Of a stretch of 64,000 nt of DNA, positions 19,662 through 36,840 are shown piece after piece. The stretch comes from Bacillota bacterium (GTDB lineage Bacteria > Bacillota > Clostridia > Lachnospirales > Bianqueaceae). The position numbers were made by a program, and so were the translations under genes. Where the stretch lies: positions 1 to 64,000 of the forward strand of contig JAFZQZ010000090.1 in NCBI GenBank assembly GCA_017620135.1. Direction: 5' to 3'. Each line of letters opens with the position of its first letter. Position 1 is the first letter of the stretch. Under the pieces are notes generated by a model. That model saw only the letters and a program-made list of their open reading frames with translations. It was not told the DNA's origin and made no database searches.

Positions 19662-22537
19662 GTGACCAGAAGGCTTATCTGCTCGAAGAATTCATCAAGC
19701 GTTTCGGCGGGACCGAGGAGGATGTCAGAGTTTATTATGCTCCCGGACGCGTGAACCTGATCGGTGAGCATATCGACTATAACGGCGGCAAGGTATTTCC
19801 CTGCGCGCTGACTTTCGGTACCTGGGGTGCGATCAGACTGCGCACGGACCGGGTACTGCGCTTTGAAAGCCTGAATTTTCCGCACCGCGTAGAGACGAGC
19901 CTGGATCCGGTCGAGTATCGCAAGGAAGACGGCTGGTCGAACTATCCGAAGGGAGTCATCAAGGAATTCCTGATGCGGGGCGTACCGCTTAGTGGCATGG
20001 ATATCATGGTCTACGGGGAGATCCCGAACAGCTCGGGCCTTTCTTCTTCCGCTTCGCTGGAAGTCCTGATCGCTACCATGCTGAACGATCAGTTCCATAC
20101 AGGGATCGATAAAGTCACTCTGACCAAGATGTGCCAGCACTCCGAGAACACCTTCAACGGGGTGAACTGCGGGATCATGGATCAGTTTTCCGTAGGCTTA
20201 GGCCGGGAGAACAAGGCGATCCTGCTGGATTGCGCGAGCCTTGAGTACAGCTATGTACCGCTGGAACTGGGACCGGTGGCGATCGTGATCGGCAACACGA
20301 AGAAAAAGCGTGGCCTGGCGGACTCCAAGTATAACGAACGGCGCGCGGAGTGCGAACAGGCACTGGCGGATCTTCAGACGAAACTGCCTGTCAAAGCACT
20401 CTGTGATCTGACGCCCAAACAGTTTGAAGCGAATAAACGTCTGATCCAAAGCGGTGTCTGCCGTAAGAGAGCCGAACACGCGGTATATGAGAATTCGCGT
20501 GTTCTGGAGGCGGTGGAAGTCCTCTCCAGAGGGGATATTGAAGCTTTCGGAAAGCTGATGAATCAGTCCCATGATTCTCTTCGGGATCTTTATGAAGTGA
20601 CCGGAAAAGAGCTGGATACCATGGTAGAAGAAGCCCGGAAGATCCCGGGCACCTTGGGTTCCCGTATGACGGGAGCCGGTTTCGGCGGCTGTACTGTGAG
20701 CCTCGTAAAAGAGGATCAGGTAGAAGTATTTATCCGCCGGGTAAGCGAAGTCTATGAGAAAAAGACCGGCCTGAAGCCGGAATTCTATGTGGCTAAAGCC
20801 GGAAAAGGCGCCTGCCGCGTGGATGAACCCATCGAGTTTCTGGTAGAGGAACTCCTGGCATATGGTTTGACGGAAGAGCTCATAGAAAAGAATGATGTGG
20901 TCTATGTCCGCAACCAGCTGCTGGATGTTTTGAAACTGCAGGAGCCCTGGGCCGAGACGAACGGTACTCAGCCGCCGCAGGCTGCCTTTGACGCGGTCGC
21001 CAAAGCGCTTCACTTAAACCGCGGGAGTCTTCATGAAGTGAAGCGAATGGAGAAGCTCGGGATCAAGGTGGTCTTTGATGACGGCAACGGTCTTTCCTCG
21101 GAAGAGACCAGGAAGCTTCAGGCCGTGGACGCGTCCAGGGATACCTTTACCCCTGAGCCGATCCTTTCCAAGATCCTGGACTATATGGTGGATAACGGAC
21201 TCATCGAGTCGGAGAGCATCGATCACCGGGACCTGATGGACGCGAAGATCATGGGATTCTTTGTGGCGCGTCCTTCGGAAGTCTCCAGGCGTTTTGAAGC
21301 GCTTCGTCAGGATGATCCGGAAAAGGCTTCCGAGTATTTCTATCATTTGTCCCGCGCAAGCCACTATGTGATGGACGAGCGGATCAAAAAGAATCTGTAC
21401 TGGCAGACGAAGACCGAGTACGGCGATCTGGAGATCACGATCAATCTTTCCAAGCCGGAAAAGGATCCGCGCGTGATCGCGAAGATGCTGAAGATGAAGA
21501 CTTCTTCCTATCCGAAGTGTCTGCTGTGCCCGGAGAACGTGGGCTACCAGGGAAGGCTCGGCCATCCGGCGAGGCAGAACCTGAGGCAGATCCCCATGGA
21601 TCTGATCGGGGAGGAATGGTATCTGCAGTATTCTCCCTATACCTACTATAACGAGCACTGTATTTTGCTGAAGGGCGAGCATGTGCCCATGAAGATCTCG
21701 GAACTGACGTTCCGGCGGCTGTTCCAGTTCGTTACGTATCTGCCGCATTATTTTATGGGATCCAACGCCGGTCTGCCGGTGGTGGGCGGGTCGATCCTGA
21801 CCCATGAACACTACCAGGGCGGTCATCACGTGTTCCCCATGGAAAACGCCTATATCCGCTGCGAGTACCGTGACCGGTCCGTGCCGAGTGTGAAGATCGC
21901 GATGGTGCACTGGGCCATGAGCTGTATCCGGCTGACCGGAAAGAATCCTTCCGAGGTGATCCGGGTGGCATCGCACATCCTGACAGCCTGGGAAGCGTAT
22001 ACGGATCCTTCCGTAGGCGTGTATGCCTTCACGGAAGAAGACGAAAAGATGGTACCGCATAACGCCATCACGCCTATTGCCAGACGGACGAAAGACGGCG
22101 GTTATGAGCTCGATCTGGTGCTTCGCAACAATCTGACGAGCGAGGAATATCCGGACGGGATCTTCCATCCGCATCCGGAACTGCATCATATCAAGAAAGA
22201 GAATATCGGTCTGATCGAGGTCATGGGCCTGGCGGTGCTGCCGGGCCGGCTCGAGAAGGAATTGGGATTGATCCGCGGGATCCTGACCGGCATGGATGAG
22301 ACACGTCTTTCTGATGCGCAAAAGGAAAGTCTGGAAAAGCATCAGCCCTGGATCAAAGAGATGAAAGAAAAGTACGGGACCGATCTGGATGAGGAAAGAG
22401 CGGAAGAGGTCCTGAAGGATGAAGTCGGCGATATCTTCCGTAAGGTCCTGGAGGACTGCGCGGTCTTCAAGAACAGTCCGTCCGGGCTGCTCGCGTTCGA
22501 CAAGTTCATGCTCAAATGCGGATTTACCCGTTTATAA
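19658..22537 (+). CDS. Bifunctional galactokinase / galactose-1-phosphate uridylyltransferase fusion
   Basis: One 959-residue frame joins two Leloir enzymes. Residues 1 to about 387 are galactokinase: GRVNLIGEHIDY (30-41), SSGLSSSASLEV and GSRMTGAGFGGC. From about 395 on it is a class II (Bacillota-type) GalT: VRNQLLDVLKL, FVARPSEVSRRFEAL, SYPKCLLCPENVGYQGR, QYSPYTYYNEHCILL and the active-site segment THEHYQGGHH near residue 715. Both halves have near-normal length and intact motifs, so this is a true fusion and not a truncated remnant. It would turn galactose directly into glucose-1-phosphate and UDP-galactose with less loss of Gal-1-P. Nearest neighbours are HIT upstream and a cyclophilin lipoprotein downstream; GalE is 22 kb away. 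Confidence 0.9.
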   Translation: MSDQKAYLLEEFIKRFGGTEEDVRVYYAPGRVNLIGEHIDYNGGKVFPCALTFGTWGAIRLRTDRVLRFESLNFPHRVETSLDPVEYRKEDGWSNYPKGVIKEFLMRGVPLSGMDIMVYGEIPNSSGLSSSASLEVLIATMLNDQFHTGIDKVTLTKMCQHSENTFNGVNCGIMDQFSVGLGRENKAILLDCASLEYSYVPLELGPVAIVIGNTKKKRGLADSKYNERRAECEQALADLQTKLPVKALCDLTPKQFEANKRLIQSGVCRKRAEHAVYENSRVLEAVEVLSRGDIEAFGKLMNQSHDSLRDLYEVTGKELDTMVEEARKIPGTLGSRMTGAGFGGCTVSLVKEDQVEVFIRRVSEVYEKKTGLKPEFYVAKAGKGACRVDEPIEFLVEELLAYGLTEELIEKNDVVYVRNQLLDVLKLQEPWAETNGTQPPQAAFDAVAKALHLNRGSLHEVKRMEKLGIKVVFDDGNGLSSEETRKLQAVDASRDTFTPEPILSKILDYMVDNGLIESESIDHRDLMDAKIMGFFVARPSEVSRRFEALRQDDPEKASEYFYHLSRASHYVMDERIKKNLYWQTKTEYGDLEITINLSKPEKDPRVIAKMLKMKTSSYPKCLLCPENVGYQGRLGHPARQNLRQIPMDLIGEEWYLQYSPYTYYNEHCILLKGEHVPMKISELTFRRLFQFVTYLPHYFMGSNAGLPVVGGSILTHEHYQGGHHVFPMENAYIRCEYRDRSVPSVKIAMVHWAMSCIRLTGKNPSEVIRVASHILTAWEAYTDPSVGVYAFTEEDEKMVPHNAITPIARRTKDGGYELDLVLRNNLTSEEYPDGIFHPHPELHHIKKENIGLIEVMGLAVLPGRLEKELGLIRGILTGMDETRLSDAQKESLEKHQPWIKEMKEKYGTDLDEERAEEVLKDEVGDIFRKVLEDCAVFKNSPSGLLAFDKFMLKCGFTRL

Positions 22538-22559
22538 TCATGTTACAAAGAGGCAGTTT

Positions 22560-23357
22560 ATGAAAAAAGTATTTGCACTTATCCTGTGTCTGGTCCTTAC
22601 CGCGGCTTTTGTATCCGGCTGCGGAGGAAGCGTCAAAAAGGATTATCAGTATCAGTTCTCCGAGCCGGCGAAAGGAGACACCATCGCGGTGATCCATACC
22701 AGCATGGGAGATATCACGGTTCGGTTTTTCCCGGATGAAGCACCGAAAGCGGTGGAGAATTTCCTGACCCACGCGAAGGAAGGCTATTTCGACGGCCAGG
22801 AGTGGTTCCGTGTCATGGATTTCTTTATCCAGTCCGGCGACCCGACGAATACCGGCGACGGCGGCGAGAGCATCTGGGGAGAGACCTTTGAGGACGAGAT
22901 CGTCGATTATCTTTCTCCCTACTACGGAGCTCTCTGCATGGCGAACTACGGCGCTTTCACCGGCACCAACTCCTCTCAGTTCTTTATCATCACGACGGAG
23001 AATAAGGATATCACGCAGGCACAGACCGCGAATGAGAACGAGAATACGCCGAAGGATATGAAGGTCGACCAGGCCAAGCTGGACAATTATCAGAAGGTCG
23101 GCGGAGCGATCTGGCTGGACGCGCAGGTAGGTGCGCTGTACGAATCCACCCTCAGCGGCTATACCGCAACGGCACATACCGTTTTCGGTCAGGTGATCGA
23201 CGGAATGGATGTGGCGGTCGCGATCTCTCAGGTACAGACGTACTCGAAGATCCAGGAGACCGACGCGACGATCGATGATCCCAAACAGACCAAAGTGAAG
23301 GAGAATCGTCCGGTCGAACCGGTCTATATCCTGAGCATCGAAGTCAAAGAATATTGA
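22560..23357 (+). CDS. Cyclophilin-type peptidyl-prolyl isomerase, lipoprotein
   Basis: The product starts with a lipoprotein signal (KKVFALILCLVLTAAFVSGC, lipobox VSGC) and then a cyclophilin domain: VIHTSMGDITVRFFPDEAPKAVENFL, FDGQEWFRVMDFFIQSGDP, GTNSSQFFIIT and HTVFGQVIDGMDV. It would catalyse proline isomerisation during folding of exported proteins on the outer face of the membrane. An insert of about 35 residues (around ENENTPKDMKVDQ) lies between the FFIIT strand and the last core strands. The start at 22560 is chosen because the signal peptide begins there; a longer in-frame start lies inside the GalK-GalT gene. Confidence 0.9.
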   Translation: MKKVFALILCLVLTAAFVSGCGGSVKKDYQYQFSEPAKGDTIAVIHTSMGDITVRFFPDEAPKAVENFLTHAKEGYFDGQEWFRVMDFFIQSGDPTNTGDGGESIWGETFEDEIVDYLSPYYGALCMANYGAFTGTNSSQFFIITTENKDITQAQTANENENTPKDMKVDQAKLDNYQKVGGAIWLDAQVGALYESTLSGYTATAHTVFGQVIDGMDVAVAISQVQTYSKIQETDATIDDPKQTKVKENRPVEPVYILSIEVKEY

Positions 23358-23390
23358 GACAGAATGTAAGCAAACCTCACAGTTTTTGAC

Positions 23391-23419
23391 TTTACACACC
23401 CGGGTTTTTATGTTATGAT
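23391..23419 (+). promoter_or_regulatory. Promoter of nifJ
   Basis: TTTACA (23391-23396), 17-base spacer, TATGAT (23414-23419). The leader to the ATG is about 80 bases and holds a GC-rich imperfect inverted repeat (CCGGCCGCAG near 23437 against CTGCCGGCCGG near 23469). Confidence 0.6.
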
Positions 23420-23507
23420 TACCTATGGTACATGATCCGGCCGCAGGTCTCGTCCAGTTGATGATCGGCTGCCGGCCGGCCCATATAAAATGAAAGGGAG
23501 AAAAACT

Positions 23508-26500
23508 ATGGCAAGAAAAATGAAGACCATGGACGGCAACAACGCAGCGGCGCATGTCAGTTACGCGTTTACTGAAGTTGCGGGCATTTACCCGATCACC
23601 CCGTCCAGCCCGATGGCCGACTACGTGGATCAGTGGTCCGCGCAGGGTCTGAAAAACATTTTCGGCACAACTGTCAAGGTCGCCGAGATGCAGTCTGAAG
23701 CCGGTGCGTCCGGTACCGTTCACGGTTCTCTGGCCGCAGGTGCTCTGACGACCACTTACACCGCTTCTCAGGGACTTCTTCTGATGATCCCCAACATGTA
23801 CAAGATCGCTGGTGAACTCCTTCCCGGTGTCTTCCATGTATCCGCTCGTACAGTCGCGGCTCAGGCGCTGAACATTTTCGGTGATCATTCCGATGTGTAT
23901 GCCTGCCGTCAGACCGGTTTCGCGATGCTCTGCGAGACCAACACCCAGGAAGTTATGGACCTCGGTGCGGTCGCTCATCTGGCAGCGATCAAAGGCCGTG
24001 TTCCGTTCCTGAACTTCTTCGATGGATTCCGTACTTCTCACGAGATCCAGAAGATCGAGATCTGGGATTATGATGATCTGAAAGAAATGGTCGACATGGA
24101 TGCAGTTGCCGAGTTCCGTAAGAGAGCGCTGAATCCGGAGCGTCCCGTTATGCGCGGTTCTCACGAGAACGGCGATATCTTCTTCCAGCATCGTGAAGCT
24201 TCCAACAAGTACTATGATGCTCTTCCGGCGATCGTCGAAGAGTACATGGACAAAGTCAATGCCAAACTCGGCACCAACTACAAACCGTTCAACTACTACG
24301 GTGCTCCCGACGCGGAAAAGATCATCATCGCCATGGGTTCCATCGTGGACGTAGCGGAAGAAGTTATCGACTACCTGACCGCCAAAGGCGAGAAGGTCGG
24401 TCTGGTCAAGGTTCGTCTGTACAGACCTTTCTGCGCAGACAAATTGCTGGCTGCTATTCCCGAGACCGTTAAGAAGATCGCGGTCCTTGATCGTACCAAA
24501 GAGCCCGGCGCGCTGGGCGAGCCCCTGTTCCTGGATGTCGTTACCGCTCTGGCGGAAGCCGGCAAGAATGATATCAAGGTCATCGGCGGCCGTTATGGTC
24601 TGGGTTCCAAAGATACGCCTCCGTCCAGCATCTTCGCTGTATATGACGAGCTGGCGAAAGACGCTCCCAAAGAGAGATTCACTCTCGGCATCAACGATGA
24701 TGTCACCTATCTGTCCCTGGAAGAGAAACCCTCTCCCAACACCGCGGCAGAAGGCACCATCGAGTGCAAGTTCTGGGGTCTTGGCGGCGACGGTACTGTT
24801 GGCGCAAACAAGAACTCCATCAAGATCATCGGTGACTATACCGACAAATACGTTCAGGCATACTTCCAGTATGACTCCAAGAAGACCGGCGGCGTGACCA
24901 TTTCCCATCTGAGATTTGGTGACAAGCCGATCAAATCTCCCTACTATATCAACAAAGCAGACTTTGTTGCCTGCCATAATCCTTCCTACATTACCAAAGG
25001 CTTCAAGATCGTCAACGACGTTAAACCCGGCGGTGTCTTCCTGATCAACTGCCAGTGGAGCCCGGAAGAGCTTTCCGAGCATCTGAATGCCGAGACCAAA
25101 CGCTACATCGCGAAGAACAACGTTCAGCTGTACACCATCGACGCGATCGATCTGGCACAGAAGGTCGGCATGGGCAAACGTACCAACACCATCCTTCAGT
25201 CCGCATTCTTCACCCTGGCAGAAGTCATGCCCAAGGAAGAAGCGATCCAGCACATGAAGGACGCTGCCAAGAAGTCCTACCTGAAGAAAGGTATGGATGT
25301 CGTTGAGAATAACTGGAAAGCGATCGACGCCGGCTCTGATGCCTTCGTGAAGATCGATGTTCCCGCTGACTGGGCTGACGCGGTCGATGCTCCCGCCGAG
25401 AACAAGCTGGCCGGTCCCGAGAAGCTGGTCAAGATGGTCGATACCATCCTGAATCCGGTCGACAAGATGGACGGTGACTCTCTGCCTGTTTCCGTATTCA
25501 TGGATCACGCAGACGGTACCTTCGAGCAGGGCGCTGCCGCTTATGAGAAACGTGGCGTAGCTGTTAACGTTCCGGTTTGGAATGAGGCTACCTGTGTGGC
25601 TTGTAACAAGTGCGCGTTCGTCTGCCCGCACGCTACCATCCGTCCGTTCGCTCTTTCCGAGGCAGAAGCCGCAGCGGCTCCCGCGAACACCAAGTACGCT
25701 CCCAAAGCCGCTCTGGTCAACAAGGCCGGTTACAAGTTCACGCTGGCGATCAGCCCGCTGGACTGCATGGGCTGCTCCGTCTGTGTAGGCGTCTGCCCGA
25801 CCAAGTCTCTGTCCATGGCTCCGATCGAGTCTCAGCTGGATCAGCAGCCGGTATTCGATTACGCGGTAGCAAACGTGACCGAGAAACCCGAACTGACCAA
25901 ATCCATTACCGCTATCTCCAGCCAGTACAAGAAACCGCTGCTTGAGTTCTCCGGCTCCTGCGCAGGCTGTGCGGAAACCTCTTACGCTCGTCTGATCACC
26001 CAGCTGTTTGGTGACAGAATGTACATCTCCAACGCGACCGGTTGCTCCTCTATCTGGGGCGGCCCCGCGGCTACTTCTCCCTACACCACGAACTTCAAGG
26101 GTCAGGGTCCTGCCTGGGCGAACTCCCTGTTCGAGGACAACGCGGAGCATGGCTTCGGTATGTATCTTGGCCAGAAAGCGATCCGTAACCGTCTGGTCGA
26201 CAAGGTGAAAGCCATTGTCGAGAAGACCGGCGACGAAGCGCTGAAGGCTGCCGGTGAAGCTTATCTCGCTACCCTGGATGACGGTGCCAAGAACCCGGCC
26301 GCGGCTGAGGCTCTGGTAGCTGCTCTTGAGAAGACCGATTGCGGATGCGAAGAGAAGAAAGACATCCTTGAGAACAAAGAGTATCTGGGCAAGAAATCTG
26401 TCTGGATCTTCGGTGGTGACGGCTGGGCCTATGATATCGGCTTCGGCGGTCTGGATCATGTCCTGGCCTCCGGCGAAGATATCAACATCATGGTCTTCGA

Positions 26501-27450: not shown

Positions 27451-27786
27451 CTAATTAAGGGAAAATCCCTGCTTCAGGACCTTGATCCAGTCTCTTTTCT
27501 CATAAAGGAATCGTATGATGTGAACAATCTTTTTTTCCTCATCAATTGTATAGAAAGCCAGATAGTTATTTACTACTACAAAGCGGATCCCATGTGTTAG
27601 TAGAAAAGGATCATCTACGATCGAATGTCCTTGAGGGTAGTTTTCTAAGTGGTTAAGTTGCTCGTCCAAAGCATCCAATAGGGCATCAGTAGCTTTGGGA
27701 TTGAGAAGGACATGATCGATATAATCAGCGGTTTCGTTAAGATCTTTGGCTGCAGTTTCAGAATAGTGGATGGTATATTTTTTCAT
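27451..27786 (-). CDS. RelE/ParE family toxin
   Basis: A 111-residue protein with the RelE/ParE fold pattern: YTIHYSETAAKDLNETADYI at the N-terminus, helix AILDALDEQLNHLENYPQG-like region, then HGIRFVVVNNYLAFYTID and the final strand VHIIRFLYEKRDW. RelE-like members cut ribosome-bound mRNA and ParE-like members block gyrase; which applies is not clear. Its ATG overlaps the antitoxin stop by four bases, the usual antitoxin-first arrangement. The heptamer array begins 36 bases beyond its stop codon. Confidence 0.87.
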   Translation of the reverse strand: MKKYTIHYSETAAKDLNETADYIDHVLLNPKATDALLDALDEQLNHLENYPQGHSIVDDPFLLTHGIRFVVVNNYLAFYTIDEEKKIVHIIRFLYEKRDWIKVLKQGFSLN

Positions 27787-28046
27787 CGTTGTCTGCGCTG
27801 CCTTAAATCTGACATTACTTTATCTGCAGGAATAGTTTTGCCGGATTTTACATCGTTTAGTCCAGTCTGTAAAAGACCATATAGTTCAAATTTTCCAACC
27901 AGTTGTTCATAAGCTTCGACACTGAGAACAGCCAAATCTCCCTTACCGTTTTTCGTTATAAAAACAGGTTCAGCATATTGATGACAGAAGTTGGAAATGT
28001 CATTATAGTTGTTTCGAAGATCAGCGCTTGATCGAATAGTTGGCAT
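27783..28046 (-). CDS. Phd/YefM family antitoxin
   Basis: An 87-residue antitoxin. The N-terminal DNA-binding part reads TIRSSADLRNNYNDISNFC and PVFITKNGKGDLAVLSVEAYE, typical of Phd/YefM; the C-terminal part (LYGLLQTGLNDVKSGK and a basic tail) should wrap the toxin. It binds the operon promoter and neutralises the RelE/ParE-like partner encoded next. AGGAGG precedes the ATG, and a consensus promoter lies just upstream. The lower GC content of this pair compared with its neighbours suggests lateral acquisition. Confidence 0.88.
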   Translation of the reverse strand: MPTIRSSADLRNNYNDISNFCHQYAEPVFITKNGKGDLAVLSVEAYEQLVGKFELYGLLQTGLNDVKSGKTIPADKVMSDLRQRRQR

Positions 28047-28112: not shown

Positions 28113-28153
28113 AAAAAACCGGTCTGCCAAAAAATAACAGCAGACCGGTTTTC
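28113..28153 (-). terminator. Terminator of the zinc-knuckle lipoprotein gene
   Basis: Arms AAAACCGGTCTGC (28115-28127) and GCAGACCGGTTTT (28140-28152) with a 12-base loop; A and T runs on both sides allow action on either strand. Confidence 0.85.
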
Positions 28154-28180
28154 TTCGTCTTAATATTTTGTGATACGGTT

Positions 28181-29383
28181 TTAGTCTTCTGGTTTGAGGC
28201 CGGTGCCGCCGCAGGCTTCGCAAAGGCCGGTGCCGCCGCAGTGGCAGAGAACAGTACCTTCGCCATCGCAGTCTTCACAGATGACCATTCCGGTTCCATT
28301 ACAGTGAGGACAATCACGGATACTGGTACCACCGCAGATCTGACACTGACCTGTACCATCGCAAGTCGGGCAGGGATCACCATCTTCGTTCACGCAGGTA
28401 CCGCCGCAAGCATCACAGCGACCGCCGTCACATTCACAGTCCTCATAACCGGCGCCATCACAGGAAGGACAGGGCATATATCCGGAGCCATCGCACATAT
28501 AGCAGCGTTCACGGCCGGTTCCGTCGCAGCGATCACAGACACCGGTTCCCTGGCAGACACTGCAGCCCTCGTGTTCATCTCTCGGTTCGCCACCTTCTTC
28601 GTCTTTATCATCTTCATCGCCTTCGTCTTCGCCAGCGCCGTCATCGTCATCATTGTCTTCGGCGTCTTCGTCTTCATCCTCGTCGGCATCTTCAGGATCT
28701 TCCTCGCCGTCCTCACCCGGATCTTCTTCGCCTTCGTCTTCCGGCTGACCTTCATCTTCTTCGCTTTTCGGTTCTTCGGACTGCTGGGAAGGATCGGGAG
28801 CATACTGGACGGCAGCATCGACTTCGATGGTGGGGACGATCGTCAGGCTGCTTTCCTTGGCGGTATCCTGCATACTCTTGTGCGCACGGGATAAAAGCTC
28901 CTGTGTAGCTGCTTCGGTCTCGGTGGTACCGAGAAGGGTGATCTTGACATCTACACCTTCCTTCAGGTAGCCGTCATCGATGGCGGTACTGATCAGATCC
29001 TTAACAGCCTCGTTGAAAGGACGGTCGATGAACATCATGCGTCCTTCCGCGTCCATCTTTTTGGCATCCTCATTTAGTGGTTCATAGGAAAAGACATCGC
29101 CGTTTTCATGCAGATAGAAAACAAAGTCAGGATTGATCGTGACGCGCACCGCATAGGCATAGACCTCAGGCGCTTTGGCAAGCACTTCGTCCGTTTTCTG
29201 TAGGGTTTCAGGCTGCGTCGGAGCTGTGCTGCTCTCGGCGGTATCGGTTTTTGTCGAAGATTCTGTAATGATGGGAACATCCTGGCTGTCTTCCTGTTTG
29301 GTACATCCGGAGAGTGCTCCGGAGAAGACCAGACAGAAGGATAAAAACAGGCAGAGTACCCATCTTTTTTTATTTGTAAACAT
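28181..29383 (-). CDS. Lipoprotein with RsgI-like domain, acidic linker and twelve zinc-knuckle-like motifs
   Basis: A 400-residue exported lipoprotein with lipobox LSGC (Cys27). Residues about 75-165 resemble the middle domain of RsgI-type anti-sigma factors (AVRVTINPDFVFYLHENGD, YEPLNEDAKKM, FNEAVKDLI). Residues about 200-275 are almost purely Asp/Glu with Gly and Pro. The C-terminal 120 residues hold ten CxxC-G motifs (for example CSVCQGTG, CDRCDGTG, CYMCDGSG, CPTCDGTG) and two CxC variants (CECDGG, CHCGGTG), like the DnaJ zinc centre, which normally has only four. Without J domain or sigma-factor partner nearby, a role in metal or redox sensing or in folding outside the cell is only a guess. 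I do not recognise this architecture. Confidence 0.8.
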   Translation of the reverse strand: MFTNKKRWVLCLFLSFCLVFSGALSGCTKQEDSQDVPIITESSTKTDTAESSTAPTQPETLQKTDEVLAKAPEVYAYAVRVTINPDFVFYLHENGDVFSYEPLNEDAKKMDAEGRMMFIDRPFNEAVKDLISTAIDDGYLKEGVDVKITLLGTTETEAATQELLSRAHKSMQDTAKESSLTIVPTIEVDAAVQYAPDPSQQSEEPKSEEDEGQPEDEGEEDPGEDGEEDPEDADEDEDEDAEDNDDDDGAGEDEGDEDDKDEEGGEPRDEHEGCSVCQGTGVCDRCDGTGRERCYMCDGSGYMPCPSCDGAGYEDCECDGGRCDACGGTCVNEDGDPCPTCDGTGQCQICGGTSIRDCPHCNGTGMVICEDCDGEGTVLCHCGGTGLCEACGGTGLKPED

Positions 29384-29487: not shown

Positions 29488-29718
29488 TCAGTCTCTCCGC
29501 ACGAGGATATCGTCGATGGGCACGCCAAACAGATCGGAAAGGACGAGCAGATTGTCAATGGTAGGTATGGTATCGCCGCGCTGCCACTTATAGATCGCCT
29601 GAGGTGTAGAGAAACCAAAGGCAGATTGCAGTTGTTTTACAGAGAGGCCGGATCCCAGGCGCAGCTGATGAATCTTTTGACCTGTCCGGCTCAGGTCAAC
29701 GACTGGAAAATGATCCAT
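29488..29718 (-). CDS. Small XRE-family helix-turn-helix protein
   Basis: A 76-residue single-domain DNA-binding protein. The helix-turn-helix is seen in GQKIHQLRLGSGLSVKQLQ followed by FGFSTPQAIYKWQRGD and the usual LLVLSDLFGVPIDDILV ending. AAAGGAG precedes the ATG at 29718; a longer in-frame start would run through the ribosome site. It stands between the zinc-knuckle lipoprotein gene (104 bases downstream, same strand) and a terminator, so it may regulate that gene; this is inference from position only. Confidence 0.82.
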   Translation of the reverse strand: MDHFPVVDLSRTGQKIHQLRLGSGLSVKQLQSAFGFSTPQAIYKWQRGDTIPTIDNLLVLSDLFGVPIDDILVRRD

Positions 29719-29755
29719 GGTTTTGATCTCCTTTACAGAATATTCCAATAAAAAA

Positions 29756-29779
29756 CGCCTGCCTCATCAGAGGCAGGCG
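29756..29779 (-). terminator. Terminator behind the frl genes
   Basis: Arms CGCCTGCCTC and GAGGCAGGCG with a four-base loop; the minus strand continues with a T run. It is placed to stop transcripts arriving from the FrlD/FrlB-like genes 250 bases upstream. Confidence 0.75.
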
Positions 29780-30032
29780 CAGTGTTTCAGGAATTCGCGA
29801 ATCTAGAATCTAGCGCATTCGAGCAAACTGCGGCATTTGGGCCTCTTTAGAGGGTATACGGGTAAAATGAGCAGGCATAATAAGGCACTGCATATTCATA
29901 CGAACTGCAGGCTTACGGATGATGTTAGCTGAAAAATACAGGTTGTTTATCATTGTTTCCCGTCCCTTTCTAAAGATTTGGTTCTGCACACTATGGGTAG
30001 TTTACCACAGGCAGATCGTTTTGTCATTATAC
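29780..30032. other. Intergenic stretch without recognised feature
   Basis: About 250 bases between a terminator and the frlD-like stop codon. It holds a tandem GAATCTA pair near 29799 and short palindromes such as ATTCGCGAAT, but no convincing gene, RNA or promoter. It is probably the 3' untranslated region of the frl transcript. Confidence 0.4.
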
Positions 30033-32171: not shown

Positions 32172-32708
32172 GTGAAATTCAGAGCGAAAACCAAGGATGA
32201 CCTGCTATATATTAAGGTAAAGACACCAAGGAAAGATGATCTGAATAGTGCAGAAATGTATTATTTCGCATCCAGATCGATTCCTTCCTTTCTATGCCCG
32301 GTCCAGGAGAAAAAGAATACCGTCATTTATTCCGGCCCCAAGGGAATCCCGCTTAAAGATTATCTGGAACGCGGTGTGACGCATAATGAGTTTTTTTCTC
32401 TGATCCGACAGATCACAGGCGCGACTTTGCGGCTCCGAAAAGAGATGTTCGCGATCAATCGGGTGATCTGGGATATCCGGTATGTATATATTTCGGAACG
32501 GACGAAAGAAATCCGGCTGATCTTTGTACCGGTAGAACAGAAGAAAGATCCGAAAGAAATACTGGTATTCTTCGTCCATATGATGAATACGCTGCGCCTT
32601 TCCTCGGGAAAGGATCGTGAGTATCTGGAGGATTTTTATCGCTTTTTGAAGACGCAGCAGTCCTATGAACCGGTCCGGATCGACCGTTATATCAGCCAAT
32701 ATGGATAA
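32172..32708 (+). CDS. DUF6382/EssB-like protein of the type VII secretion locus
   Basis: A 178-residue soluble protein opening the secretion operon. The order of strands and helices, with LKDYLERGVTHNEFFSLIRQI, then AINRVIWDIRYVYISE and IRLIFVPVEQKK, resembles the pseudokinase-like fold of DUF6382 and of the EssB N-terminal domain. No membrane segment is present, unlike EssB. I take the GTG at 32172, eight bases after AAGGAG. An ATG four bases earlier opens a ten-codon out-of-frame peptide and stops, so a short overlapping frame precedes the gene. It overlaps the essC-like gene by eight bases. Confidence 0.6.
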   Translation: MKFRAKTKDDLLYIKVKTPRKDDLNSAEMYYFASRSIPSFLCPVQEKKNTVIYSGPKGIPLKDYLERGVTHNEFFSLIRQITGATLRLRKEMFAINRVIWDIRYVYISERTKEIRLIFVPVEQKKDPKEILVFFVHMMNTLRLSSGKDREYLEDFYRFLKTQQSYEPVRIDRYISQYG

Positions 32709-35700
32709 AAACCGCGCATGGATCCATTTGACCCTGTATCGCTCGCCGAAGACGGATCAGCGGGCGGTGGAAGCGGATCTGGAGGTCCCGCTTTCGATCA
32801 CGGCGGAAGATCTTAAAGAAGCTCTTTCAGGGATCTATCAGGTAAAGATCGAGATCCTGAAAACAGAATATCCATACAGGATCCTGGCCGGGAAGGCCGT
32901 TTTAAGTGAAACAGGACTAAGAAACGGTACTCACCTGATCGCGGGACCGGCTGACATTGAATACCTTCCGGCCGGAGGAGGAATCTCGGCGGATTTCCGC
33001 CCGGGGAAAGAATATCCCAGATTTACCAGAAATACGCGGATCCGGATCGTTCCGGACCAAGAGGGGATCGAGATCCTGGATCCTCCGAAGAAACCCGAGA
33101 AGAGGAAAGAAGGGTGGCTTCTCCGGCTCCTTCCGGCTTTCAGCATGCTGATTACAGCCGGAGCTCTGGCTGTGCTCGGAGGCGGCCGGATGCTGGTTTT
33201 TTCGGTCATTTCCGGTATGATGGCGATCATCAGTTCCGTGGGAGCGCTAATTCATTCCCGCAAAGAGAAAAAAGCGAACATCAAAGGACGGACACAGAAA
33301 TACAAACAGTATATCGCGAATAAACAACGAGAGATCGAGCTGGCGCGCGAAAAGGAGAAGAAAGACCTGGAGAAGATCTGCCTGTCTCTTCCGGAAGAGG
33401 AAGAGAGGATCCTGCGGTTTTCACCGCATCTTTTCGATCGGACGCCGGAGGATGATGATTTCCTTCTCGTTCGTCTGGGAAGCGGCTCGGTCCCGGCCGT
33501 CAAAGAAATCATCTGTCATCATCAGGAACGGCTGGAGGCGGAAGACGAGCTTTTTGACCTGCCAGGACAACTGAAACGGCGGTATCAGTTTATTCCGGAT
33601 TCGCCTGTGACAGTGGATCTTAAGAAAATCTGCGCGATGGGCGTGGTGGGGAAGGAACCGGATCGCTATGAGATCCTGAAGGAGATGCTGATCGATCTGT
33701 GTTCTCGTCAGTACTGCTCAGATCTTTGCCTGATCCTGGTAGCCGGTGAAAAGACTGCCGAAAGGATCCGTTGGGCCCGGTTTTTCCCACATGTTTTCTG
33801 TGAAGAGCTTGGCATGCCCGCGGCAGCCGCGACAGATGAATATCGTCTGGTCATCTACGAGTATCTTTATAAGGAACTGTCCGAACGCGAGCAGATACCG
33901 AAAGAAGCTCTCAGGCACAGAGCATGGCTGGTCGTGTTTCTCTATGAGGATATAGGCTTTATGACTCATCCGGTTTCCCGGTACGTTGAGAAGGCCAGGG
34001 AACTGTCGGTAACATTCATTTTCTTCAAGGATCATCCGGAGGAAGTGCCCGTAGGATGTCAGTATATTCTGGAGATCAAGGACGAGCGAGGGGCCGTCCT
34101 GATCCCGGTATCCGACAGCGCCAGGTCCGTTTATGTCTTTTATCCGCGGATCCCGGATGAAAGGGCGGAAAAGCTCGCGAAGATCCTGGCTCCGGTTTAT
34201 ACGGAAGAGATCTCCCTGGAAGGTTCTCTCTCAAAAAACTACTCTCTCTTTGAAATGCTGGGGATCCACTCAGTGAGAGAACTGGATCTTTCCAAACGAT
34301 GGAAACAATCGGATGTGACTCGCCATATGGCAGCGCCGATCGGTATTTCCAAGACAGGGATCCTGGAACTGGATCTGTCGGAGCAGGCCCACGGTCCTCA
34401 CGGACTGATCGCCGGCATGACTGGCTCTGGCAAGTCGGAACTGCTGCAGACACTGATCCTTTCCCTGTCGGCTTTGTTTCATCCGTTTGAAGTTGGATTC
34501 GTGATCATCGACTTCAAGGGCGGCGGTATGGCAGGACCGTTCAGGGATCTGCCGCATCTGATCGGTACCATCACGAACATAGATGATAGTGCCGTGGATC
34601 GATCATTAAGGTCCATCAAAGCGGAGCTGACCAAGAGGCAGAAGCTTTTTCACGAGGCGAATGTCAGTCATATCGACCAGTATATCTACCTGTACAAGGC
34701 AGGGAAGGTCTCCTGGCCTATGCCGCATCTGATCATCATCGTGGATGAATTCGCCGAGCTGAAAGCCGAGCAGCCGGAGTTTATGAAGGAGGTCATCTCA
34801 GCGGCCCGCATCGGCCGAAGTCTGGGAGTCCATCTGATCCTGGCGACGCAAAAACCGGCCGGACAGGTGAGTGAACAGATCTGGTCCAACTCACGTTTTC
34901 GGATCTGTCTGAAAGTCCAGAGCAAGGAAGACAGCAATGAAGTGCTGAAATCGCCTTTGGCAGCGGAGATCAGGGAACCGGGCCGCGCCTGTTTCCAGGT
35001 AGGGAATAACGAGATCTTTGAACTGTTCCAGTCCGCGTATTCCGGCAGTCCGTTGGATACTGTTTCCGGCAGCCAAAAGGAATTTGTTATTTATCAGTAT
35101 ACAGAAACCGGTAAGCGTACACCGGTTTATGTACGGAAGAATCCACAGACCGCGGAAAAGAAGACACAACTGGAAGCGCTCGTCCGGCATATCCGTGACT
35201 ATGCCGAAGCAGCCGGGATCCGGAAACTCCCGGATATCTGTTTGCCTGAACTTTCGAAGGTGCTGAACTATCCGGATGAGGAAGGTCCTACCGCCGCGGG
35301 GATCCTTTGCAGGATCGGGGTCTGTGACGACCCGGACGAGCAGTATCAGGGAGAGTATTTTCTGGATTTTTCCGGACAGAATGTCATGATGATCGGTTCA
35401 TCCCAGAGCGGAAAAACGAATCTGCTGCAGACGATGATCCGCAGCCTCGCCAGCCGGTATTCGCCGCAGGAAGTCAATATCTATCTTCTGGACTTTGCCT
35501 CTATGTCGCTGAAGAATTTTGAAACGCTTTCTCATGTGGGCGGAGTTGTCACCGCTTCGGAGGATGAAAAGCTGAAGCATTTGTTTCGAATGCTTCTGGA
35601 TGAAATACCTTCTCGAAAAGAAAAACTGCTTCGAACGGGCGTCAGTTCGTTCGAAGCCTACCGTGAAGCAGGACGAAGCGATCTTCCGCAGATCGTCCTG

Positions 35701-36840
35701 ATGATCGATAATCTGACAGTCCTGAAGGAACTGTATCTGCAGGACTCCGATGAACTGCTGACGCTGTGCAGGGAAGGCGCTTCCCTGGGGATCAGCGTGA
35801 TCGTCGCGAATTCTCATACACAAGGCATCGGGTATCGGTATCTTTCTTCGTTTGGCTCAAGAATCGCTTTTTTCTGTCATGACACAGGCGAATACAGTGC
35901 GCTCTTCGATCACTGCCGTGAGCGGCTTTCAAATATTCCCGGCCGCGCGCTGATCGGGATGGACAAGAAACATCCGGAATGTCAGGTCTATCTGGCTTTC
36001 CAGGGGGAAAAGGAGATCGAGCGTGCGGAGAAGATCCGGGAGTTTATCAGGAAGACCAATCAGCAGTATCCGGACATCCACGCACCAAGGATCCCGGTGA
36101 TCCCTGACCGGCTGCGGATGGAAGACCTCTGCAAAGCTTTTCCGGCTAAGAAGCCGTATCAGTTGCCAATTGGGCTCGATTATGAGACAGTCAAACCGTT
36201 CGTCCTGAATCTCGCTGCAGCAGGAACACTGGCGCTTTCCGGAAGGGATGGAGGCGGATATCATGAAAGAATGATCAGACTGCTCCAGATGACGGACAAG
36301 CTCTATCCGGGCAAAATTAAGGTATATGTCGTGGACGGAGTAGAGAGAAGGCTGGAAAAGCTGCGAGCAGTAAACTTTGTAAGAAGTTATACGGTGGACG
36401 CAGAAGCATCCTGCATGATCATCCGGCAGATGGAAGAAGAGCTGAAAAAACGATACGAGCTTTTGGTAAGCGGCGATAGAGAGCAACTACAGAAAACACC
36501 GCTTCTCGTCTTGCTGATGGAAGGGAACGATCCCGCTATTGCGGTCCAGAATAGTAAAGAGGCGCTGACAGCGTATAGAAACATCGTTGGTCGGTATAAG
36601 AATCTGAACGTCTGTATTTTTCTGCTGATCGAGAATATGGCGATCCCCTACAGTGCGCCGGATATGTTGAGGGCCGTCAGGGATAACAGACATATCCTGT
36701 TTTTTGACAATTTGGCAGATGTGAAGATCTTCGACCCGCCTCTTCCCTGGCTGCGTACATACAAAAAGCCACTCGAACAAGACGATGGTTATTATATGAA
36801 AGGAAATGAAATTGTGAAGCTGAAGACACCAAGGGTGTAA
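32701..36840 (+). CDS. EssC-like type VII secretion FtsK/SpoIIIE ATPase with ubiquitin-like N-terminus
   Basis: The motor of a Bacillota-type (T7SSb) secretion system, about 1379 residues. Residues 1-85 resemble the ubiquitin-like YukD/EsaB fold (IHLTLYRSPKTDQRAVEADLE, LSITAEDLKEALSG), in place of the FHA domains of classical EssC. Two membrane segments lie at about 139-185. ATPase domain 1 has Walker A GMTGSGKS (about 572-579) and Walker B LIIIVDEFAEL; domain 2 has GSSQSGKT (about 898) and IVLMIDNL; domain 3 (about 1179 on) reads SGRDGGGYHER and lacks the Walker lysine. It drives export of WXG100 partners, one of which is encoded next. I use the ATG at 32701; an ATG at 32665 lies deeper in the preceding gene. 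Confidence 0.9.
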   Translation: MDKNRAWIHLTLYRSPKTDQRAVEADLEVPLSITAEDLKEALSGIYQVKIEILKTEYPYRILAGKAVLSETGLRNGTHLIAGPADIEYLPAGGGISADFRPGKEYPRFTRNTRIRIVPDQEGIEILDPPKKPEKRKEGWLLRLLPAFSMLITAGALAVLGGGRMLVFSVISGMMAIISSVGALIHSRKEKKANIKGRTQKYKQYIANKQREIELAREKEKKDLEKICLSLPEEEERILRFSPHLFDRTPEDDDFLLVRLGSGSVPAVKEIICHHQERLEAEDELFDLPGQLKRRYQFIPDSPVTVDLKKICAMGVVGKEPDRYEILKEMLIDLCSRQYCSDLCLILVAGEKTAERIRWARFFPHVFCEELGMPAAAATDEYRLVIYEYLYKELSEREQIPKEALRHRAWLVVFLYEDIGFMTHPVSRYVEKARELSVTFIFFKDHPEEVPVGCQYILEIKDERGAVLIPVSDSARSVYVFYPRIPDERAEKLAKILAPVYTEEISLEGSLSKNYSLFEMLGIHSVRELDLSKRWKQSDVTRHMAAPIGISKTGILELDLSEQAHGPHGLIAGMTGSGKSELLQTLILSLSALFHPFEVGFVIIDFKGGGMAGPFRDLPHLIGTITNIDDSAVDRSLRSIKAELTKRQKLFHEANVSHIDQYIYLYKAGKVSWPMPHLIIIVDEFAELKAEQPEFMKEVISAARIGRSLGVHLILATQKPAGQVSEQIWSNSRFRICLKVQSKEDSNEVLKSPLAAEIREPGRACFQVGNNEIFELFQSAYSGSPLDTVSGSQKEFVIYQYTETGKRTPVYVRKNPQTAEKKTQLEALVRHIRDYAEAAGIRKLPDICLPELSKVLNYPDEEGPTAAGILCRIGVCDDPDEQYQGEYFLDFSGQNVMMIGSSQSGKTNLLQTMIRSLASRYSPQEVNIYLLDFASMSLKNFETLSHVGGVVTASEDEKLKHLFRMLLDEIPSRKEKLLRTGVSSFEAYREAGRSDLPQIVLMIDNLTVLKELYLQDSDELLTLCREGASLGISVIVANSHTQGIGYRYLSSFGSRIAFFCHDTGEYSALFDHCRERLSNIPGRALIGMDKKHPECQVYLAFQGEKEIERAEKIREFIRKTNQQYPDIHAPRIPVIPDRLRMEDLCKAFPAKKPYQLPIGLDYETVKPFVLNLAAAGTLALSGRDGGGYHERMIRLLQMTDKLYPGKIKVYVVDGVERRLEKLRAVNFVRSYTVDAEASCMIIRQMEEELKKRYELLVSGDREQLQKTPLLVLLMEGNDPAIAVQNSKEALTAYRNIVGRYKNLNVCIFLLIENMAIPYSAPDMLRAVRDNRHILFFDNLADVKIFDPPLPWLRTYKKPLEQDDGYYMKGNEIVKLKTPRV

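Follow-up and report, generated by a model that had tools for sequence, protein, structure and literature searches.

In RsgI anti-sigma factors, the SEAL domain is the part that cleaves itself and that is proposed to sense force, and a parallel to it has been proposed in the eukaryotic SEA domains, which undergo autoproteolysis with retained strand pairing but belong to a different sequence family. The motif CxxCxGxG is the form taken by the zinc sites of DnaJ, in which the first motif pairs with the fourth and the second with the third. RsgI periplasmic domains autocleave, and the separation of strand β1 is the first step of signalling (PMC12203970). In plants, the proteins BSD2, LQY1 and PSA2 carry C-terminal CxxCxGxG repeats without a J domain (PMC4806229).

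Here we analyse a gene in the window, a 64,000-nucleotide stretch of DNA from a Bacillota bacterium, whose product joins a SEAL domain to a tail of such cysteine motifs. The gene (28181-29383, minus strand) is an exact open reading frame with an ATG start, and the encoded protein of 400 residues consists, in this order, of a lipoprotein leader with the lipid Cys27, an RsgI_M/SEAL domain (PF23750), an acidic linker and the cysteine-motif tail (Table 1). Because the same combination of leader, SEAL domain and cysteine tail recurs in 12 proteins from 11 genomes, we regard it as a real family and not as an oddity, and the family is apparently undescribed. The individual domains are already known; the combination, its recurrence and a lipid-anchored class appear to be new to the literature covered, in which we found no description of a lipoprotein-SEAL-knuckle protein and which does not include the original SEAL papers (Brogan 2023, Chen 2023, Takayesu 2024).

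The window protein shares with the RsgI anti-sigma-I factors (B. subtilis RsgI and C. thermocellum RsgI1-9) a homologous SEAL domain, the N-P bond, a linker and an exchangeable C-terminal module. It differs from them in having a lipid anchor instead of a transmembrane helix, in lacking RsgI_N and any cytoplasmic part, and in having no adjacent sigma factor. With the cysteine-rich domain of DnaJ (PF00684; 1exk) the tail of the family has the CxxCxGxG motifs in common; in contrast to DnaJ, the family has no J domain (absent from the window protein according to Pfam), is extracellular, and carries 6-16 motifs that are mostly 1-3 residues apart, where DnaJ has four spaced ones. The plant proteins, unlike the SEAL-knuckle family, have four motifs, no SEAL domain and no lipid anchor.

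Table 1. Features of the lipoprotein gene and of its immediate surroundings in the window.
Feature	Position	Strand	Basis
Lipoprotein leader with lipobox (LSG-C27), residues 1-27	29303..29383	-	Sequence; homologue alignment
Ser/Thr/Glu-rich stalk, residues 28-70	29174..29302	-	Sequence
RsgI_M/SEAL domain, residues 78-182	28838..29152	-	Pfam match and AF2 model
Asn84-Pro85, predicted autoproteolytic bond	29129..29134	-	Invariant INP; RsgI PDB B-chain starts
Acidic linker, residues 197-273	28565..28795	-	D/E content
Zinc-knuckle tail, motif group 1 (six; fifth CxC), residues 274-337	28373..28564	-	Spacing, Cys invariance
Zinc-knuckle tail, motif group 2 (six; fifth CxC), residues 338-395	28199..28372	-	Spacing
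Intrinsic-terminator-like hairpin just past the lipoprotein gene	28113..28154	-	17-pair stem, T run
Small XRE/HTH_3 gene, directly upstream	29488..29748	-	HTH_3 E 1.7e-9
Second terminator-like hairpin, upstream of XRE	29755..29780	-	Scan

Architecture of the window protein

The leader of the window protein, MFTNKKRWVLCLFLSFCLVFSGALSG-C27, is a canonical lipobox. The lipid Cys is aligned and invariant across 12 homologues, 11 of which have a canonical lipobox and one of which (G935) has FYGC. An earlier note, made from the sequence alone, had described an exported lipoprotein, and this description holds; homologues without a signal peptide, which would have spoken against the note's idea of metal binding outside the cell, did not turn up, the leader and its Cys being retained. 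Ahead of the RsgI_M domain, the only hydrophobic stretch is the leader that ends at Cys27. The stalk that follows the anchor differs in length between homologues, and Cys is absent between C27 and the tail of the window protein.

Residues 78-182 match PF23750 with an E-value of 1.2e-12 and 49 bits (cut-off 25.3), and the same profile is matched by 12 of 12 family members, in line with the resemblance to the middle domain of RsgI that the earlier note had pointed out. An AF2 model of the domain (pLDDT 69, pTM 0.61), although only of moderate quality, retrieved 8t9n in a Foldseek search (E 1.5e-4, probability 1.00, TM 0.54-0.65) as well as 8hdj, and the significant fold matches of the model are RsgI structures only.

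Could the window domain cleave itself as RsgI does? In the alignment of the 12 members, I83-N84-P85 is invariant, as are N104 and A107. A profile built from 18 RsgI_M domains (A1) retrieves the solved RsgI periplasmic domains from the PDB, and in 8her, 8heq, 8hdj, 8hep and 8u9o the B chain begins at the residue aligned to Pro15 of this profile. In 8t9n, by its name a GGG-mutant RsgI from B. subtilis, the chain continues through the aligned cleavage position. We take the cut in the RsgI structures to lie at Asn-Pro from these chain starts. Because five RsgI B chains start exactly at the aligned Pro, residues 84-85 of the window protein align with the bond at which RsgI cleaves itself, and it is likely, judging from this alignment, that the window SEAL domain cleaves its own Asn84-Pro85 bond. 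The earlier note had recognized the RsgI-like domain and overlooked the conserved self-cleavage bond within it. In the nearest paralogue (G000:C8; L154 5332-6270), also a lipoprotein with a SEAL domain, G-P replaces N-P and an acidic end replaces the knuckles, which makes it a candidate for a non-cleaving natural control.

The tail holds 25 Cys within residues 274-400. Its motifs number ten CxxCxG, eight of them full CxxCxGxG, plus two CxC variants, CECDGG and CHCGG, in agreement with the earlier count of DnaJ-type motifs. They are spaced 9-11-11-11-7 in the first group and 9-11-11-11-8 in the second. An origin of these two six-motif units by internal duplication is only suggestive, as 285 out of 5000 shuffles of the order scored at least as high in sequence. 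By analogy with DnaJ, we infer that motifs 1-6, 2-5 and 3-4 would pair within each unit, giving six predicted zinc sites. AF2 returned no fold for the tail (pLDDT 35, from a two-row alignment).

In seven genomes of the window's genus neither DsbA nor VKOR was found, and the exported proteins of obligate anaerobes tend to be kept free of cysteine (PMC12453122). Metal-bound thiols are for these reasons likelier than disulphides, and the tail cysteines probably bind metal. The same tendency makes an extracellular zinc-knuckle module unusual for an obligate anaerobe.

Members, conservation and distribution of the family

We counted as members those proteins that combine a lipoprotein leader, an RsgI_M domain and a knuckle tail, found through searches for relatives and by reading of loci. 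They belong to two families of one order: three are from the window's genus (the window genome G000, G006 and G002), and the others are from another family of the same order (G358, G858, G909 with two copies, G963, G999, G373, G892 and G935). With 12 members, a single-lineage oddity is ruled out. An NCBIfam search of the window protein gave no meaningful match. The core Cys and Gly of the tail are invariant in the alignment of all 12, so that the cysteine motifs, on whose conservation the earlier note had made its metal-binding reading depend, are kept in the homologues.

The closest orthologue, in a metagenome-assembled Bacillota genome from goat omasum (L001 in G006), is 82-87% identical to the window protein. 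It retains 24 of the 25 tail Cys, the lost C330 being a non-motif position; six Cys codons differ synonymously between the two genes, and dN/dS is 0.12 in the tail and likewise 0.12 in the RsgI_M part. The cysteine tail is therefore not a product of chance, and by these codon comparisons its Cys are under purifying selection.

The linker behaves differently. In the window protein it is indeed acidic, as the earlier note had stressed, with a D/E fraction of 0.62 over residues 197-272, but this feature is not conserved: homologue linkers range from about 4 to 88 residues, with about 4 in two members, and are elsewhere Ser/Gln-, Thr/Ala- or Pro/Gly/Asp-rich. We therefore reject the acidic linker as an essential part; since linkers vary in both length and composition, the conserved parts are the leader, the SEAL domain and the tail.

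A strict double-motif pattern is rare: among 392 genomes of the order, 9 carried it, as did 9 of 397 of the other family, some of these hits lacking a SEAL domain. The pattern search detected no SEAL-knuckle protein outside the order among the sampled genomes of the phylum, where the matches were GGC repeats, one of which contains a stop in frame, and a single short knuckle end.

In the domain tree, a single clade of all knuckle bearers alone was rejected (AU p 0.005, 12 members). A clade that unites the knuckle bearers with tail-swapped lipoproteins, carrying an acidic tail or MORN-like repeats, received support of 90/94.6 in a smaller set and was not rejected in a larger one (AU p 0.26-0.38). 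Because the knuckle bearers group with tail-swapped lipoproteins and not alone, it seems that the tail is a module which can be exchanged on, or lost from, a lipoprotein-SEAL chassis. The sensor modules of the C. thermocellum RsgI proteins are likewise exchangeable (PMC12203970). One lipoprotein-SEAL protein (L028 1345-2823, in G017) has MORN/YwqK-like repeats where the knuckle tail would be. Dense CxxCxGxG knuckles were also seen without a SEAL domain, on other apparently exported or lipid-anchored proteins (L017, L033, L037, L038, L041, L042, L156 and L160), and given these bearers the knuckle ends are apparently an extracytoplasmic module of wider use.

Gene neighbourhood and relation to SigI-RsgI signalling

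Besides the XRE gene, the neighbours of the window gene are a toxin-antitoxin pair and a gene resembling that of pyruvate:ferredoxin oxidoreductase. The XRE gene, which the earlier note had placed upstream on the same strand, is indeed found there, and an orthologue (96%) occupies the same place in G006; as a conserved partner of the lipoprotein it is unsupported beyond that genome. As both genes sit between two terminator-like hairpins, they may form a two-gene unit. Elsewhere, the regulator immediately upstream on the same strand is again of the XRE type in G935, and MFS-LuxR membrane regulators hold this position in G002 and G358. No regulator lies immediately upstream in G858, G963, G999, G373 and G892 or at either G909 copy. 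We regard the upstream regulators as a lead and not as a conclusion. In two families, the gene next upstream of a SEAL-knuckle lipoprotein encodes an MFS-fold membrane protein that ends in a LuxR (GerE) domain (L151 5385-6785 and L153 43-1506).

Other observations concern the surroundings of the gene. The toxin-antitoxin pair (27451-28046, minus strand) is of the ParE/Phd type and has a TTGACA-17-TATAAT box without mismatch at 28104-28076; G006 showed no such pair at the corresponding place (L001, L155). On the plus strand, at 32172-36840, a DUF6382 gene is followed by that of a 1391-residue FtsK/SpoIIIE protein similar to the type VII secretion protein EssC; the region is syntenic in G006. 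A frame of 1311 residues (22524-26459, minus strand) runs antisense to the pyruvate:ferredoxin oxidoreductase-like gene and is open in G006 (L001) too; it is probably an artefact of codon bias.

RsgI_N had no match in the window protein and none in the genome G000, whose RsgI_M matches comprise two proteins only, both lipoproteins, and the window protein has no transmembrane helix linking the cytoplasm to the SEAL domain. A lipoprotein that has no part in the cytoplasm is unable to bind a sigma factor there by itself, a point that the earlier note had passed over. We therefore reject a direct anti-sigma role; by its domain content the window protein is a relative of the RsgI ectodomain, not an anti-sigma factor. 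In the survey of gene neighbours for sigma factors that the earlier note had proposed, no sigma factor or sigI adjoined the window gene; the first G909 copy comes just after an ECF-sigma/ABC operon. Membrane-anchored RsgI_M proteins of the same family carry DINPS or DVNPS, and several appear by eye to lie near sigma-factor-like genes. A knuckle tail is absent from the membrane-anchored relatives examined, except for the short end of L181 (in G1081), a terminal cysteine patch with two CxxC (CYPCGYEGCPICYG).

A separate group of lipoproteins does accompany sigma factors. At 13 loci (L112, L116, L119, L121, L133, L194, L200, L207, L209, L210, L211, L212 and L213), a lipoprotein with an SVNPE-type RsgI_M domain adjoins a sigI-like gene and an rsgI gene, and in several of them a VTC-domain gene comes next. 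Pfam confirmed the sigma70 region 2 and RsgI_N/RsgI_M domains in L116, L207 and L210. These lipoproteins share with the knuckle family the lipobox and an RsgI_M domain with N-P. They differ from it in forming their own SVNPE branch of the domain tree and in having acidic, Tyr/Asp-repeat or PepSY tails and no knuckles.

A proposed detachable anchor and competing explanations

We propose, with a probability of about 0.5, that the window protein is a lipoprotein anchor which cleaves itself, is held together non-covalently, and displays and may shed a predicted zinc-knuckle binding domain. It would be organised like the RsgI ectodomain, with an anchor, a SEAL domain that cuts itself, a linker and a binding module, the lipid on Cys27 replacing the transmembrane helix and the cytoplasmic anti-sigma part. 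By homology, the SEAL domain would cut Asn84-Pro85 after export, and the lipid-linked residues 27-84 would stay attached to the remainder through β-strand pairing; the outer part would consequently be held non-covalently and could be released upon pulling or upon destabilisation by a ligand. The outer domain with its 24-25 cysteines, presumably kept reduced and loaded with metal since enzymes that form disulphides seem to be missing from the organism, would bind a partner, be it a protein, a metal or a wall component, and the likeliest job of the whole would be the regulated display and shedding of this domain. What points most strongly to a pull-apart anchor is that INP is invariant in proteins with no membrane-crossing route of their own, and that the outer module is conserved while the linkers are not. 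The close paralogue with G-P lacks the knuckle tail as well, as a single case. Against the proposal, L028 and L193, lipoproteins near the knuckle group, keep N-P with a different tail, and no gene neighbour conserved among the members indicates a read-out.

The main rival, which we consider rather unlikely, is that the protein signals in trans as the outer half of a two-protein sensor, dissociation of its SEAL domain acting on a separate membrane or DNA-binding regulator, which would be sigI/rsgI in other species and an HTH regulator here. It could draw on the lipoprotein-SEAL group found directly beside sigI-rsgI and on the HTH regulators immediately upstream in G000/G006, G002, G358 and G935. 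However, the window genome has no RsgI_N and no RsgI_M proteins other than the two lipoproteins; moreover, the upstream regulators are of differing families, are missing in other members, and their enrichment is a post hoc observation.

The DnaJ-like character of the tail raises the less probable alternative that the protein assists exported proteins outside the cytoplasm, as a holdase or in thiol-disulphide chemistry, with the SEAL domain as a mere stalk. The tail matches the DnaJ structure 1exk in a phmmer search (E 2.5e-5), the DnaJ_CXXCXGXG model is matched in 3 of 12 members (best E 1.5e-7) and BSD2_CRD in one of the 12 (E 0.0077). Plant DnaJ-type zinc-finger proteins without a J domain take part in protein assembly, in the case of PSA2 within the thylakoid lumen (PMC4806229). 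Against this, the Pfam DnaJ search did not reach the window protein at E<=1, the close packing of the motifs departs from the spaced four of DnaJ, and a mere stalk offers no evident reason for an invariant INP.

A cell-surface store or sensor of metal, in which acidic linker and knuckles together bind zinc or iron, is more doubtful still: the window protein, with its 25 Cys and strongly acidic linker, would suit it, but most homologues lack such a linker and metal genes do not recur consistently next to the members, an MgtE-like gene adjacent to G963 and a more distant Fur-like gene being single cases noted by eye. That the cysteines are disulphide-bonded into a stable adhesive rod fits their extracytoplasmic location and is nevertheless very improbable, given that neither DsbA nor VKOR was found in seven genomes of the genus and given the zinc-site form of the motifs.

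Returning to the detachable anchor, the invariant cleavage bond on lipid-anchored proteins, which cannot alone pass a signal across the membrane, suggests a second use of the SEAL domain as a pull-apart anchor. More tentatively, SEAL domains released from their anti-sigma role might serve bacteria as a class of detachable anchors, force- or ligand-released clips that keep zinc-knuckle or other domains at the cell surface and shed them when needed, possibly with SigI/RsgI or HTH partners in trans. The group linked to sigI-rsgI, in turn, suggests that SigI signalling in gut Bacillota includes a lipoprotein component, one that has apparently not been described.
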